Positions 5,214 through 29,348 of a DNA stretch of 29,709 nt are shown in pieces; the first letter of the stretch is position 1; the number at the start of each line of letters is the position of its first letter. Under the pieces are notes generated by a model. That model made no database searches. It was given only the letters and a program-made list of their open reading frames with translations, and was not told where the DNA came from. The DNA comes from Nitrospinota bacterium (GTDB lineage Bacteria > Nitrospinota > Nitrospinia > JACRGO01). Made by a program: the position numbers and the translations under genes. Location of the stretch: contig JACRGO010000008.1 in NCBI GenBank assembly GCA_016212295.1, forward strand, positions 1-29,709, given 5' to 3'.

Positions 5214-5384
5214 ATGATTGAGGAAAGCAAAAAAGCTGAAGAAAAGATACCTTACTGGCAGGTTTTTTATGACGACATCATGCTGCTCTTTTTTCTGAGC
5301 GCGGCCATCACCTTTATATCGTTCACGGTGTGGGGGCTCATGGAAATCGGCAACACGCCGGTAATGCCGGATTATACTTTTTAG
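5214..5384 (+). CDS. Small membrane protein at head of reductase operon
   Basis: The product has 56 residues, with ATG at 5214 preceded by a strong GGAGG (5202-5206). The N-terminus is charged (MIEESKKAEEKIPYWQ). One transmembrane helix follows (about 22-42, IMLLFFLSAAITFISFTVW) and a short tail ends in PVMPDYTF. It is immediately followed by the subunit II gene (15-nt gap). Its place before subunit II and its single helix resemble the small subunit IIa that accompanies B-type (ba3) heme-copper reductases. Sequence alone does not prove homology, so it is best described as a probable accessory subunit. Confidence 0.7.
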   Translation: MIEESKKAEEKIPYWQVFYDDIMLLFFLSAAITFISFTVWGLMEIGNTPVMPDYTF

Positions 5385-5399
5385 CAAGGAGACCAGTTA

Positions 5400-5924
5400 A
5401 TGGCAATCACGTCACCTGAGAGACTTTGGTGGAAGCAGCCGGTGTGCGGCCAGGAGAAGCTATGGATATCCATAGCCCTTGTATGGTGCATATTCATTAC
5501 AGCTATCATGCCTTACTGGCATTTTTTCGGGAAACAGAACCCTTCCCAGGAATACTACAGGGTCTCCCCGGTCAAATACGGCGCCATAGTGGATAAATTC
5601 ACCGCGAAGCACAAAGTCGGGGAAGAGGCCGGGATTCCAGTGGTTGATCCTCCGCCCGGGGACATCTTTATCGCCGGAAGCCAGTTCGTATGGCATCCTA
5701 TCCTAAAGCTCAAGTCAGGCAGGACTTACAGGCTGCACCTTTCCTCAACGGACATGGTGCACGGATTTTCAGTCTATCCAATGAACATGAACTTCATGGC
5801 CGTGCCGGACATGGATTATGTCCTGACGATCCAGCCGGATAAAGCCGGAGAGTTCTTCATAATTTGCAATGAGTTCTGCGGCGGCGGACACCACACCATG
5901 ACCGGAAAAATAATAGTGTCATAA
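5400..5924 (+). CDS. Heme-copper reductase subunit II with CuA site (NorS/CoxB-like)
   Basis: The product has 174 residues, short for a subunit II and typical of B-type enzymes with one N-terminal membrane helix (about 20-43, LWISIALVWCIFITAIMPYW). The rest is a periplasmic cupredoxin domain. The full CuA ligand set is visible: His121 (DMVHGFSV), then CNEFCGGGHHTM giving Cys156, Cys160, His164 and Met167 with the canonical C-x3-C-x3-H-x2-M spacing. The subunit should accept electrons from a soluble or membrane cytochrome c and pass them to subunit I. The start at 5400 has AAGGAG 13 nt upstream. Next gene is 14 nt downstream (AAGGAG before its ATG). In sNOR nomenclature it would be NorS; a cytochrome oxidase subunit II is the alternative. 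Confidence 0.9.
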   Translation: MAITSPERLWWKQPVCGQEKLWISIALVWCIFITAIMPYWHFFGKQNPSQEYYRVSPVKYGAIVDKFTAKHKVGEEAGIPVVDPPPGDIFIAGSQFVWHPILKLKSGRTYRLHLSSTDMVHGFSVYPMNMNFMAVPDMDYVLTIQPDKAGEFFIICNEFCGGGHHTMTGKIIVS

Positions 5925-5938
5925 GGAGATATAGCTAT

Positions 5939-7444
5939 ATGGAAGATTTTCGCGTATGCCCGGCCACCGGTTTGAAAGTCCATAAACCGGCGGAGCTTCT
6001 TATAAAAATAAACGCGGTCACAGCCATTGTCTTTATCCTGATAGGCGGACTGATGGCCTTGCTGCTGGCGCTGACGAAGATACCCGCCATTCACCTTCTC
6101 CCGTCCGATCTCTTCTACCGCTTCCTGACCCTGCACGGCATAGCCATGCTTGTGGCCTGGATAATCTTCTTCGAGGCGGCCATTCTTTATTTCACCTCCG
6201 CGGTGCTTTTGAACTGCCGTCTGGCCGCGGTGAAGGTGGCGTGGCTGGCCTATGGCCTGATGCTCGGCGGGGCGCTCATGGCCGCTGTTGAGATCCTCAT
6301 AGGAAACGCTGATTGCATGTTCACCTCCTATCCCCCGCTTCAAGCGCACCACCTTTATTATCTGGGGGTCATCCTTTTCGCGGTAGGGGCGATACTTGTT
6401 TGCTGCGTCTTCTTCGGGACGCTGGCGGTCGCGAAGCATGAAAAGACCTACGAAGGGTCCTTGCCTCTGGTGACCTTCGGCGCGGCAGCGGCGGCAATCA
6501 TAGCCATAGTCACCCTGGCCCACGGGGCCATTATATTCGTTCCCACCTGGCTCTGGGCCCTTGGGGTCATCCAGCATATCGACGCCCCGGCCTATCGCCT
6601 TATCTTCTGGGGCTTCGGCCATTCCTCACAACAAATTAACGTCTGCGCCATGGTTGCCGTGTGGTATTTAATCGCCGCTGTTACCGTGGGCGCGAAGCCG
6701 GTGAACCAGAGGGTTTGCCGCACGGCCTTTGTGTTGTACATTCTATTTATAGATATCGCGTCGGAGCATCACATCCTGGTTGACCCCGGATTCAGCGCAG
6801 CTCATAAGGCATGGAACACCGGGTACTTCATGCACCTTGCGGTCCTGGCCAGCATGATCCACGCCCTGGCCGTTCCATCGGCGATAGAGATCGCATTGAG
6901 AAAAAAAGGGCACACCCAGGGGTATTTCGAGTGGCTGAAAAAGGCCCCGTGGGGCAATCCCTCCTTTTCCGCCATGGTCTGGTCAATCGCGGGCTTCGGT
7001 TTTCTTGGAGGGATCACCGGCGTGACCTTCGGCACTGAGCAGATCAACATCATAGCGCACAACACATGGAGGATCACCGGGCATTTCCACAGCACGGTCG
7101 TGGCAGGCACCACAATGTCCTTCATGGGGCTTACTTATATAGTTCTGCCCCTCATCTTCAGGAAGGAGGTCGCTTTCCCTAAACTGGCGAAATTTCAGCC
7201 TCACGTCTTCGGGGTCGGCATCTGGACCATGGCCATCTTCATGATGTTCAGCGGCTCCTTCGGCATGCCGAGGCGGCATTGGGACATCACATTTTCCGAC
7301 GCGGCGTTCTCCATACCCTTTGATCAGACCGCCATGATGGCCCTGCATATATTCGGGGTCGGGGCCATAATAGCCGTGATCGGAGGGGGGATGTTCGTGC
7401 TTGTGTCAGTGGCGACCCTTTTAATCGGAAAAGATATCAAGTAG
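5939..7444 (+). CDS. B-type-like heme-copper reductase subunit I lacking the active-site Tyr (sNOR-like candidate)
   Basis: The product has 501 residues with about 12 predicted membrane helices. All metal ligands are present: His66 (LTLHGIAM) and His384 for the low-spin heme, His382 for the high-spin heme (ITGHFHSTV), and His228, His277 and His278 for CuB ([20 protein letters not shown]). The HHxxVDPG form is typical of B-type enzymes. In oxygen reductases of the A and B families CuB-His is followed at +4 by the cross-linked Tyr (HPEVY, HPIVY). Here +4 is Gln232, and there is no Tyr in that turn. Nitric oxide reductases derived within this superfamily (sNOR, bNOR/CuA-NOR, eNOR, gNOR) are known to lack this Tyr. 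With a CuA subunit II and a SenC gene nearby, as in the norSY-senC clusters of ammonia oxidisers, NO reductase is more likely than O2 reductase. This is an inference; activity is untested. Confidence 0.85.
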
Positions 7445-7491
7445 AATATAGCGATTCAAAAATTTCAACGAGAGAGGGGGTGGAAAAAGCA

Positions 7492-7623
7492 ATGGCAGGA
7501 AAAAACGGACATGAATTCGAAGCGCCTGGTTCATTTGTATTGATCATGACTTTTTTCGCGGTCTTCGTTCTGGTGTACCTCTTGAACTGGAAATACCTGA
7601 GCGACCTTTGGCCCATTAATTAG
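7492..7623 (+). CDS. Small single-helix membrane protein of the reductase operon
   Basis: The product has 43 residues (47 if the in-frame GTG at 7480 is the start, which sits closer to the purine-rich GAGAGAGGGG stretch). It has a hydrophilic N-terminus, one transmembrane helix ([19 protein letters not shown]) and a short end [10 protein letters not shown]. It lies 47 nt after subunit I and directly before the operon terminator, so it probably belongs to the complex as a small accessory subunit. It is too short for a family call. Confidence 0.65.
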
Positions 7624-7764: not shown

Positions 7765-8673
7765 ATGACCAAAATGTCTTTATTAAACGCAAAGGGCCGG
7801 TTCGACGACGTGATGCGGTATCTTACGCTTCTAAAGATCCGGATCGCCCTCCTCTTCGTGTTCACCGCCGAATCCGCGTATATCCTGACCGTCCGAAAGG
7901 ACGCTTCCCTGTCCGTTGCCCTCTTTCTTGCCTTGTCCACCATGCTTGCATCCATGGCCGGCGGGGCCTTGAACCATTATTTCGACCTCGATATCGACGG
8001 CAAAATGAAGCGCACCAGCCTTCGCCCCTTGCCCATGAAGATGGTGAAAAATCCCTCCCTGGTGCTGACCATTGCCCTGGCCCTGCTGGGCCTGTCAATG
8101 GGGATATCCTCTTATTTCCTTAATTACACGGTCTCCTTTCACCTTTTCGGCGGGGTGTTTTTCTACATTGTTATTTACACCCTGTGGCTGAAAAGGAGGT
8201 CATGGGTCAATATCATCGTCGGAGGACTGGCAGGCAGCTTCGCGGTTTTGGCAGGGGGCGCCTCCGCCACGCCTGACCTCTGCGTTCCACCGGCGCTGAT
8301 GGCGATAGTGCTTTTCCTCTGGACCCCGTCCCACTTCTGGAGTTTCGCCATAGTCCATAAGGAGGACTACCGGAGGGCTGGAGTGCCGATGCTCCCCTTG
8401 ATAGTGGGGGACCAAAAAACAGCGGTCTATATTTTCGTCAACACCCTTTTGCTCGTTTTCTTCTCCCTGCTCCCGGCGCTTATGGGATATCTCGGCTTCA
8501 TCTACTTTTTCGCCGCGCTTGGCGCCGGCGCTTTTTTTCTTTACAGAAACGTCCAGCTTCTGAGAGATACCTCTCCCGCGATCGCATGGTTGAATTTCAA
8601 GGCGTCCATGACCCACCTTTCCATCATTTTGATGGCGATCATTTTCGACATTTTCCTGCTGCCTTCAAAGTAG
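7765..8673 (+). CDS. ctaB: Protoheme IX farnesyltransferase (heme O synthase)
   Basis: The product is 302 residues from ATG 7765 (GGGTGA 7 nt upstream; a TTG at 7750 would add five residues). It is a UbiA-superfamily polytopic membrane enzyme with about nine helices. The prenyl diphosphate/Mg-binding motif is NHYFDLDID (residues 70-78), and the second conserved region is YTLWLKRRSWVNIIVGG. LWTPSHFWSFAI and EDYRRAGVPMLP are typical of CtaB/COX10. It adds a farnesyl group to heme b to give heme o for the heme-copper enzyme. No ctaA (heme A synthase) is present in the window, so whether heme o or a is used stays open. It follows the reductase terminator by about 80 nt and is probably transcribed with the SCO gene. 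Confidence 0.95.
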   Translation: MTKMSLLNAKGRFDDVMRYLTLLKIRIALLFVFTAESAYILTVRKDASLSVALFLALSTMLASMAGGALNHYFDLDIDGKMKRTSLRPLPMKMVKNPSLVLTIALALLGLSMGISSYFLNYTVSFHLFGGVFFYIVIYTLWLKRRSWVNIIVGGLAGSFAVLAGGASATPDLCVPPALMAIVLFLWTPSHFWSFAIVHKEDYRRAGVPMLPLIVGDQKTAVYIFVNTLLLVFFSLLPALMGYLGFIYFFAALGAGAFFLYRNVQLLRDTSPAIAWLNFKASMTHLSIILMAIIFDIFLLPSK

Positions 8674-8723
8674 ATACATACTCGCCTATTCCTATAATTT
8701 ATAAGATTGATGGAAACAGTATC

Positions 8724-9569
8724 GTGTTAAAAATAAAGGCCCTTTTGCCTGTTTTCCTGTCCGGCCTCCTCCTTTTCCTTGCGCCAAAGGAAGGATCAGC
8801 GGCTTTTTCCCGAGGAGACCAGAAAAAAATCTATCTAAACGCCCTCCGCGCCCCTAACGACGCCTTGGGAAAGAATATAGGCGATCATGGTTTCATCGAC
8901 CAGGACGGCAAGAATTTTGAGCTAAGTGAATTCATCGGGAAACCATTCATAGTGGCCTTCATCTACACCTCCTGCCCGGACGTCTGCCCGAACATTCTTT
9001 CAGCCCTGGTGGATGTGGTCCGAAAGGCGGGTGACCGGTTCGGCAGGGATTTCAGGATCCTGGCCATCGCCTTTGACGTGGAAAACGATAAACCGGAGGC
9101 GCTGAGGAATTATGGAGAAAGTTTCACCAGGGATTTCGACAACTGGAAATTCGCCACCATGAAAAGCAGCGCCGACATGCGGAACTTCGCGGACAGGTTC
9201 GGCTTTGTCTATGCCAAGACAAGCCGTGGATACGACCACCTGAGCATGGTTTCCGTGGTGGGCGGGGACGGGACCCTGATGGCGCATTTTTTCGGGGAGC
9301 AATTAAAACCGGAACCGGTCCTTGCGGCCCTGGATCTGAAGGTCCCGGTCAAACTGGATTTAAACGCGCTGTCTTTAATGGACAAGGTCCTCTTTTTCTG
9401 CTCTTATTACGACCCGGCCTCGGGAGACTACAAGGTGGATTATGTCCTCCTGGGGCAATTCGCGCTCCAATACATATTAATCACCGTGACTGTTATATTT
9501 TTCGCCCGGAAAAAGATATCCTGGGTTATTAAAAAATTGTTTTTCTTCAATGCGGGTAAAAAAATATGA
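8724..9569 (+). CDS. SCO1/SenC copper chaperone
   Basis: The product is 281 residues from GTG 8724, the start that puts a hydrophobic signal/anchor (LLPVFLSGLLLFLA) at the N-terminus. An open frame further upstream overlaps ctaB and gives no signal. The thioredoxin-like domain carries the copper-binding pair CPDVC (Cys84 and Cys88) and the conserved His172 (RGYDHLSMV). The C-terminus has the family's FFCSYYDPASGDY segment and an extra membrane helix (QYILITVTVIFFA). It inserts or reduces copper at CuA of subunit II. senC also follows the norSY genes in sNOR clusters. The stop overlaps the next gene by 4 nt (ATGA), so the two are translationally coupled. Confidence 0.9.
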   Translation: MLKIKALLPVFLSGLLLFLAPKEGSAAFSRGDQKKIYLNALRAPNDALGKNIGDHGFIDQDGKNFELSEFIGKPFIVAFIYTSCPDVCPNILSALVDVVRKAGDRFGRDFRILAIAFDVENDKPEALRNYGESFTRDFDNWKFATMKSSADMRNFADRFGFVYAKTSRGYDHLSMVSVVGGDGTLMAHFFGEQLKPEPVLAALDLKVPVKLDLNALSLMDKVLFFCSYYDPASGDYKVDYVLLGQFALQYILITVTVIFFARKKISWVIKKLFFFNAGKKI

Positions 9570-9883
9570 TCCATTCTTTTTTGTTGCCGTTCATCGGAAT
9601 CATTATGATGTTGGGGGCCGGTTTCATCGGGGGCTTTTATGAATATGCCACGGCGTATGATTTGGCCGGCAGCCACCCTTTGACTTCGGACAAGAAAAAA
9701 AGGTTTTTCGGGAAAATGCTGCAAATATCGCTGATAATGGGGGGGCTATACCTGATTGTGGCCTACATGGATATTCTTCTGGCGGCTTTGGCCTACTTCT
9801 ACGCGGAATACGGCTTCCCTAGGATAGTAAAATCCAGGTATGAGAAATTCTTCGCTGCCGCCAAGGAGCAAGGGAGCCAGTAA
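9566..9883 (+). CDS. Small membrane protein coupled to SCO gene
   Basis: The product has 105 residues. Its start ATG overlaps the SCO stop codon. There are two hydrophobic segments (FLLPFIGIIMMLGAGFIGGF and ISLIMGGLYLIVAYMDILLA) separated by a polar loop with DKKKRF, plus a basic C-terminal tail. Position makes it a likely part of reductase assembly or a further small subunit, but I recognise no family. No clear terminator follows. Confidence 0.65.
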   Translation: MIHSFLLPFIGIIMMLGAGFIGGFYEYATAYDLAGSHPLTSDKKKRFFGKMLQISLIMGGLYLIVAYMDILLAALAYFYAEYGFPRIVKSRYEKFFAAAKEQGSQ

Positions 9884-13407: not shown

Positions 13408-14406
13408 ATGGAAAATAAACGAAAATTCAAACCCAACACTTCCCTCAAACTCATGGACCAAGTTCGAGAGGTATTGCGTTACCACCATTACGCCATTCGA
13501 ACCGAGACCACCTACTGCCAGTGGATACTGCGCTACATCCATTTTTTCGGTGGAAAAACACACCCAAAAAAACTGGGCGCTACCGATGTGGAAAAATTTT
13601 TATCCCACTTGGCCACGCAGGGACAGGTCTCCGCGTCCACTCAGCGCCAGGCATTAAACGCCCTTATCTTTCTCTATCGCGAAGTCCTGGATATATCCCT
13701 TGAAGAAAAAATTGCTCCAGTCCGCGCAAAAAAGCAACCTCGTCCACCGACCGTACTGACCCAGGAAGAAACCCCGTTCCTTCTCCGTGAGATCAGCGGG
13801 ACCCACGCCCTTATGGCTAAACTACTTTACGGCTCCGGCCTTCGCCTCATGGAGTGCATAAGACTTCGCATCCAGGATATTGATTTCGGCCAAAACAACA
13901 TTTTTGTCCGTGCCGGCAAGGGCGGAAAGGACCGAACAACCATCCTGCCGAAAAACCTTCGCGAGGAACTTCAAATACACGTCAAGCGCGTTATTGAGCT
14001 GCACCATCGCGATGTGGATGAGGGCTTCGGGAAAGTGTATATACCTCCGGCTTTGGCCCGCAAATTTAAAAACGCGGAGAATGAAACCCGTTGGCAATAC
14101 GTCTTCCCCGCTAAAAAAAGGTCCGTGGACCCAAGATCAGACCGTGAAATGCGGCATCACGTATTGGAATCCGGGCTACAAAAAGCGGTCAAAGCCGCCT
14201 CGGACCGCGCTGGAATCCAAAAACGTGTGGGCTGCCATACTCTCAGGCACAGTTTCGCAACCCATATGCTGGAAAACGGCGTAAATATCCGGGTCCTTCA
14301 AACGTTGCTGGGGCACGCCGATGTCAAAACCACGGAAATTTATACCCATGTCATGCAACGCGATATTGATGGTCTTCAAAGTCCGCTGGACCGGTTGAAC
14401 GATTAG
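13408..14406 (+). CDS. intI: Integron integrase (IntI-type tyrosine recombinase)
   Basis: The product has 332 residues; ATG 13408 follows AGGAG. The N-terminal SAM-like core-binding domain is residues 12-100. The catalytic domain holds Arg146 (YGSGLRLME), Lys174 (GKGGKDRTTILP), His277-x-x-Arg280 (CHTLRHSFATH), His303 (LLGHADVKTTE) and nucleophile Tyr312 (IYTHV). Between patches II and III it carries the IntI-specific extra segment (about 212-262, including RWQYVFPAKKRSVDPRS and HVLESGLQKAV), which binds the extrahelical bases of attC and separates IntI from XerC/D. It is intact and divergent from the minus-strand cassette array, the normal integron layout. It inserts and excises cassettes at attI/attC. 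Confidence 0.96.
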   Translation: MENKRKFKPNTSLKLMDQVREVLRYHHYAIRTETTYCQWILRYIHFFGGKTHPKKLGATDVEKFLSHLATQGQVSASTQRQALNALIFLYREVLDISLEEKIAPVRAKKQPRPPTVLTQEETPFLLREISGTHALMAKLLYGSGLRLMECIRLRIQDIDFGQNNIFVRAGKGGKDRTTILPKNLREELQIHVKRVIELHHRDVDEGFGKVYIPPALARKFKNAENETRWQYVFPAKKRSVDPRSDREMRHHVLESGLQKAVKAASDRAGIQKRVGCHTLRHSFATHMLENGVNIRVLQTLLGHADVKTTEIYTHVMQRDIDGLQSPLDRLND

Positions 14407-28499: not shown

Positions 28500-29348
28500 T
28501 GTTTGGCGAAAGCCAACGGCGGGGCTCCAGGAGTTGATGGAGCCACCATTGAAGACTTTCCCGGCCTTATTCGCTCTCACTGGCCCCGAATCAGCCAAAC
28601 CCTGTTGGATGGGAAGTACGAACCCTCCGCCGTGAAACGGGTCATGATCCCGAAACGAAGTGGAGGGGAACGGCCCCTCGGGATACCCACGGTCCAGGAC
28701 CGGGTAATCCAGCAAGCCATCCAGCGCCTTGGGTTTACGTTTTACGCCAGGGGAAGGAAAGTCCGATGGCCGGATCAAGCCTTCCTGGACTTCAAGCATC
28801 GCGTCCGTAAATTGACGGGACGGAGTCGGGGAGCCTCCCTGAAATACCGGTTTCAAACTCTTGCCCGCTATGTCAGAGGTTGGATGACGATTCGTCAGGA
28901 CAGACGAATTGGACGGTGTTTTTAACCGCCCGGAGGGCGAGGCCCATGGACGGGCCGAGTCAACTATTTTGGAATTTCCGACTACTACAACCGGGAACGG
29001 AAAAAAAATCCCCGGATGGATATTTTTTCGCGCAAGCCCGAAGGGTAGCGGACAGGACGTCCGCTACAAAACGCCATGCGATTATGACGGGCCTTAGCGG
29101 CAAGAGCTACTGGCATCTGTCGAAAACCTTGGCCACTCAAACCGGAATGACCGATAGTTGGCTTAAAAGCCAGGGTTTGATCTCCGTGCGTGATCGTTGG
29201 ATGAAAGCGCATGGTTATGCCTGAGTTATCGTTTTGCTACATCATTATGAACCGCCCTGTTAGTGCGTGACCGAAGGAAATCCCTTTAGGGAGACCCGCA
29301 TGCAGGGTGGTGCGGGGGCTGGGGGCCAAACACCCCCGGCTACCCGAT
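28500..29348 (+). mobile_element. Decayed group II intron (IIC-attC type), copy 2
   Basis: The fragment begins abruptly inside the reverse transcriptase N-terminus near 28500, so domains I-III are missing. It runs through the broken maturase gene (to 29224) and ends with domain V (GAACCGCCCTG from 29249, partner CAGGGTGGTG), a G/C hairpin and CTACCCGAT at 29340-29348. The next bases TGGGC equal the right part of an attC box (GT|TGGGC). 137 nt of this end (29213-29349) equal 11195-11331 with two differences. Confidence 0.85.
28503..29224 (+). pseudogene. Group II intron reverse transcriptase/maturase, broken
   Basis: Piece 1 starts at RT block 0/1 (AKANGGAPGVDGATIEDFPG, KRVMIPKRSGGERPLGIPTV, QDRVIQQAIQR). 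It then jumps near 28725 to the thumb and maturase region (LGFTFYARGRKVR, FKHRVRKLTGRSRGASLKYR, LARYVRGWM). All palm motifs including YADD are deleted. An in-frame 72-nt insert (28887-28958) brings a stop codon, after which VNYFGISDYYN resumes. A frameshift then leads to the last part (KRHAIMTGLSGKSYWHLSKT, then LISVRDRWMKAHGYA and a stop). It cannot be active. The pieces match the class C-type RT that serves attC-targeting introns. Confidence 0.88.

Follow-up and report, generated by a model that had tools for sequence, protein, structure and literature searches.

Does a heme-copper enzyme of a Nitrospinota bacterium that carries glutamine in place of the active-site tyrosine reduce O2 or NO, and to which family does it belong? 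The window (the whole 29,709-nucleotide stretch of DNA that was analysed) encodes this predicted eNOR-type NO reductase subunit I at 5939..7444 on the forward (+) strand. The 501-aa product was a 12-helix heme-copper subunit I (Pfam COX1 match, 194 bits). Alignment with 116 related sequences assigned His66 and His384 as low-spin heme ligands, His382 as the high-spin heme ligand, and His228, His277 and His278 as CuB ligands. These six histidines were invariant or almost so across 86 Gln-type homologues (His384 was present in 84 of 86). Residue 232, four after the CuB ligand His228 (HSSQQ), occupies the position of the cross-linked Tyr of A- and B-family O2 reductases; it was Gln in the window protein and in 86 of 86 homologues, and Tyr in all 14 Tyr-type oxidases compared. 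The initial annotation had described six ligand histidines and a Gln replacing the cross-linked Tyr, and the alignment confirmed that this sequence observation is real. In the Gln-type eNORs on two Thermus thermophilus plasmids (L010 and L011), the low-spin heme ligand His384 was replaced by Lys (GHFK) in both copies.

Subunit I lies within a cluster of seven genes, all on the + strand. The first encodes a probable small subunit (5214..5384; 56 aa, single helix) placed like subunit IIa of ba3; its homologue precedes subunit II in most eNOR loci and was 82% identical in a same-genus genome. Subunit II (5400..5924), directly upstream of subunit I, has a complete CuA site, H..C-x3-C-x3-H-x2-M (VHGF ... 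CNEFCGGGHHTM), and aligning it with 7deg_B, the CuA chain of 7deg, bore out the earlier claim to this effect. Subunit I is followed by its detached C-terminal 13th helix (7480..7623; 43-47 aa, starting at ATG 7492 or GTG 7480), which was 71% identical to its counterpart in the same-genus genome. The next genes encode CtaB/heme o synthase (7765..8673; TIGR01473, 247.7 bits against a cut-off of 210.3) and an SCO1/SenC family CuA-assembly protein (about 8676..9569, start codon uncertain; PF02630, 69.4 bits against a cut-off of 22.8). The cluster ends with a 105-aa membrane protein (9566..9883) that had no family match in profile searches and was not found in the other eNOR loci compared; it was conserved in place, at 49% identity, in the same-genus genome. 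The ctaB gene, the SenC-type gene and the three small membrane proteins reported before were thus all present, and all seven genes occurred in the same order in the second genome of the genus, where subunit I was 84% identical. With 13 matches where 16 were expected, no FNR-type box stood out, nor did promoter-like sites exceed chance level. Elsewhere in the window were an integron integrase (13408-14403; TIGR02249, 439 bits), short ORFs at about 11-13.3 kb that may be integron cassettes, and a fragment of a group II intron reverse transcriptase/maturase (28503-28922).

The eNOR family is reportedly due to Hemp and Gennis in 2008. According to the residue key in Table A4 of PMC8756737, the diagnostic position holds Tyr in O2 reductases, Glu in cNOR and qNOR, Asn in sNOR and CuANOR, Asp in gNOR and Gln in eNOR; under this key, Gln232 makes the window protein eNOR-like, not sNOR-like. 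That paper assigns eNOR to Archaea, Chloroflexi and Proteobacteria and describes it as often misannotated as cytochrome c oxidase. eNOR has been listed among the biochemically characterised NO reductases and as related to B-family oxygen reductases (PMC11388526, with Murali et al. 2024 on eNOR as cited there). The window enzyme has Gln at the Tyr position, the six His ligands, a B-family-like subunit I and a CuA cupredoxin subunit II immediately upstream, and it may also have the single K-type proton channel predicted for eNOR; its likeness to the eNOR family was judged by the residue key and published descriptions. It differs in that the 13th helix has a small gene of its own, as it also does in loci of other Nitrospinota, of Nitrospirota and of genomes labelled Myxococcota. 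Across the loci compared, this helix was fused to subunit I in 63 and a separate ORF in 18, the latter mainly in Nitrospinota, Nitrospirota, Myxococcota-labelled and Chloroflexota genomes. The cluster most likely encodes an eNOR-type NO reductase.

Several other identities did not fit. The bNOR (CuANOR) of Bacillus azotoformans is likewise a B-family-related NO reductase of the CuA type, but bNOR has Asn at the diagnostic position where the window protein has Gln232, and it has been reported from Bacillota only (PMC11388526). A gNOR would require Asp at this position. A cNOR or qNOR would require Glu and a C-family-like subunit, whereas the nearest solved relatives of the window protein were ba3 enzymes. 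The C-family (cbb3) O2 reductases have an alternative Tyr on helix VII, six residues ahead of the HH pair that binds CuB, counted from its first His. The window protein holds Ile271 there, and Leu or Ile was found in 86 of 86 Gln-type sequences, so that the Tyr from another helix raised as a possible objection was absent from the cbb3-type position.

A scan of genome contigs returned at least 553 relatives, of which the best 80 were retained. These best 80 were 55-68% identical to the window protein and came from Nitrospinota, Nitrospirota, Pseudomonadota, Gemmatimonadota and others. Copies from Defluviimonas, Thermomicrobium roseum and two Thermus plasmids were added, and the motif H-x-x-Q-Q-[IV]-N was present in these and in all of the best 80. 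Gln231-Gln232, Glu79, Tyr243, Tyr267, Asn293, Tyr296, Ser305 and His308 were kept in 86 of 86 Gln-type sequences. The Tyr-type B-family oxidases retained Tyr243 and a Ser or Thr at 305, had Thr at 308, and differed from the Gln-type sequences at 79, 293 and 296.

The Gln enzymes formed a single group in the tree (SH-aLRT 91), separate from the Tyr oxidases, and the window protein grouped with Nitrospinota copies (support 98). Placement inside the Tyr O2-reductase clade, which had been named as a possible refutation, was not what the tree gave. The tree includes Thermus and Chloroflexota Gln-type copies and was built without the assayed eNOR reference (Rhodothermus marinus); several long branches limit its deep branching order. 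In PMC8756737 the eNOR alignment contains Thermus and Rhodothermus sequences and the eNOR tree holds Thermus and Chloroflexi; the Gln clade found here also holds Thermus and Chloroflexota copies, with no accession shared between the two trees. The Gln group was spread across many phyla. The suggestion that the enzyme represents an unusual lineage was therefore not supported: it is an ordinary member of an already known, widespread kind.

An AlphaFold2 model of subunit I was built from 34 sequences (mean pLDDT 87.6). In Foldseek searches, the predicted fold best matched Thermus ba3 (4g7r, E 3.6e-19, TM 0.87), followed by Aquifex ba3 and A-family enzymes. VIA-align of the model gave Z 38-40 against A-family and B-family chains alike and so did not separate the two families. 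Sequence searches strongly favoured ba3, and the closest PDB sequences were ba3 enzymes; the best sequence and Foldseek matches thus agreed with the B-family-like derivation of eNOR. The window enzyme shares the fold, the six histidines and the CuA subunit with the ba3 O2 reductases of Thermus (1ehk, 1xme) and Aquifex (7deg), and its Tyr243 is the equivalent of Tyr248. It differs from them in having Gln232 for Tyr237, His308 for Thr312 and Val239 for Tyr244. In the sequence alignment, the K-channel-like residues Tyr243 and Ser305 are retained, with His308 standing for Thr312.

A NirK-like gene, NnrS, an Rrf2/NsrR-like regulator or a hemerythrin was encoded near subunit I in 42 of the 80 best relatives. 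Hemerythrin is not NO-specific. Locus counts among the 80 were 68 for cytochrome b-type genes, 34 for hemerythrin, 7 for Rrf2/NsrR-like regulators, 6 for NnrS and 3 for NirK-like genes; the count of NO-linked neighbourhoods is weakened because 34 of the counted loci have hemerythrin and only 3 a NirK-like gene. Profile searches placed NirK over its curated cut-off in one relative's locus (L028), identified NnrS in another (L029), and in a third (L059) found an Rrf2 protein whose best-scoring specific model was NsrR, at a score under that model's cut-off. Beside the Thermus plasmid eNORs lay genes for a ScdA_N/RIC-type protein, for an Rrf2 regulator and for a NirK-like protein that scored under the model cut-off. 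In Ardenticatena maritima, eNOR and NirK are encoded in one operon (PMC4653789).

Of the seven COX1 matches in the genome (90.5% complete), two were A-type oxidases with Tyr and one was the window copy; the others lay on contigs C98, C185 and C214. C98 carries a second Gln-type eNOR, 60% identical to that of the window, and beside it are encoded a divergent HCO and two CuA subunits; C185 carries a CuB-less HCO and C214 a fragment. A clade III lactonase-type NosZ-like protein (607 aa; 599 bits, below the cut-off of 700) was encoded on C59 (L129:2144-3964) upstream of cytochrome b genes. The statement that no other denitrification gene was in view holds for the window; it fails for the genome, given the NosZ-like gene and the second eNOR. 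Two type II molybdoenzymes (1164-1166 aa), with NarG model matches under the cut-off, are candidates for a nitrite oxidoreductase or a nitrate reductase; one was accompanied by an iron-sulfur subunit, an EB_dh subunit and a chaperone-like gene nearby. No NirK was found in the 90.5%-complete genome and NirS had no convincing match there, the weak matches being propeller-type proteins, among them the NosZ-like protein; this lack of a nitrite reductase counts against the eNOR reading.

Other heme-copper relatives were seen in this genome and elsewhere. The HCO paralogue beside the second eNOR (L128:5098-6540 on C98, and L025:5525-6949) retains the CuB His set but differs at two other sites: Asn stands where the cross-linked Tyr would be, and the proximal His ligand of the high-spin heme is replaced by Tyr (AILGYIHAT / AILGYVHAV). 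Of 77 genomes of the phylum, 2 encode it. With a CuA subunit gene close by, it could be a heme-copper reductase; that the C98 paralogue has a Tyr-ligated or no high-spin heme and partners eNOR on NO seems unlikely. The CuB-less HCO-like family (L132:6966-8402 on C185; L019-L023, L030, L039, L044, L063, L074, L082, L092 and L094) carries a G-x-GH[IV]LQ-like motif and retains both heme ligand sets, the CuB HH pair being lost in nearly all members. It occurred near eNOR in 13 other genomes, adjoined the Gln clade in the tree, and may be an electron-transfer or assembly paralogue. Both the Tyr-for-His paralogue and the CuB-less family are more unusual than the window eNOR. The C214 fragment (L007:1480-2499) joins a short transmembrane segment of HCO type to a pair of DUF1858 domains.

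The cross-linked Tyr of O2 reductases is the source of the fourth electron for O-O cleavage, and because Gln232 replaces it, the active site of the window enzyme would suit two-electron NO chemistry. Its most likely function, as predicted from sequence, is the reduction of NO to N2O fed by cytochrome c or a cupredoxin. CuA in subunit II would be reduced by such a periplasmic donor, and electrons would pass by way of the low-spin heme (His66/His384) to the site formed by the high-spin heme (His382) and CuB (His228/277/278), which would convert two NO to N2O. Protons would probably enter by a K-type channel of Tyr243, Ser305 and the eNOR-specific His308, and with such a channel the reaction may conserve energy. 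CtaB would supply heme o or a heme a precursor and SCO would load CuA; the small proteins, including the detached 13th helix, would act as accessory helices. Energy conservation by eNOR has been proposed in PMC8756737 and PMC8114936, and NO reduction by the window enzyme is probably energy-conserving as well.

That the enzyme serves for NO detoxification only, without proton pumping, is a variant of the eNOR reading and not exclusive with it. It is a real, if lesser, possibility: neither nitrite reductase was convincingly present in the genome, and NsrR-like regulator and RIC-type genes adjoin some relatives, but the K-channel-like residues are retained and the two eNOR copies with the NosZ-like gene suggest a respiratory branch. 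A B-family O2 reductase variant that does without the cross-linked Tyr, drawing the electron from Tyr267 or the low-spin heme, is quite improbable. Its nearest relatives in fold and sequence are indeed ba3 O2 reductases. Tyr267, ten residues before the HH pair, was invariant in 86 of 86 Gln-type sequences and Phe in 9 of 10 Tyr-type B-family oxidases; it lies, with Tyr296 and Tyr243, on helices near the active site, and these invariant tyrosines count against the eNOR reading. For the related sNOR, moreover, a case has been made for O2 reductase function (PMC6967387). Against the O2-reductase variant stand the fixation of Gln throughout a large clade, the NO-linked neighbours of several relatives, the two A-type O2 reductases with Tyr already in the genome, and the report of eNOR as a characterised NO reductase (PMC11388526). 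An sNOR of the norSY-senC type (Nitrosomonas europaea), also a CuA-type B-family relative with an SCO/SenC gene, is extremely unlikely, since by the published key sNOR has Asn where the window protein has Gln. SCO proteins serve CuA assembly in general, so the SCO/SenC gene is not diagnostic of sNOR; nor is its position beside a CuA enzyme, because the A-type oxidase on C93 of the same genome has an SCO too. Of the initial annotation's reading, NO reduction is thus the best-supported part, and the analogy with sNOR falls away.

The eNOR-type assignment bears on how NO reduction is recognised. The plasmid copies of eNOR compared here were labelled 'cbb3-type' or 'b(o/a)3-type', and because eNOR genes routinely go under the name of cytochrome c oxidase subunit I, NO reduction is undercounted. 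The window adds a genus of Nitrospinia, whose two eNOR copies, together with a NosZ-like gene, make an NO-to-N2 branch possible in a genome where no nitrite reductase was found. The split 13th helix, together with Glu79, Asn293, Tyr296 and His308, provides simple sequence marks for spotting eNOR.
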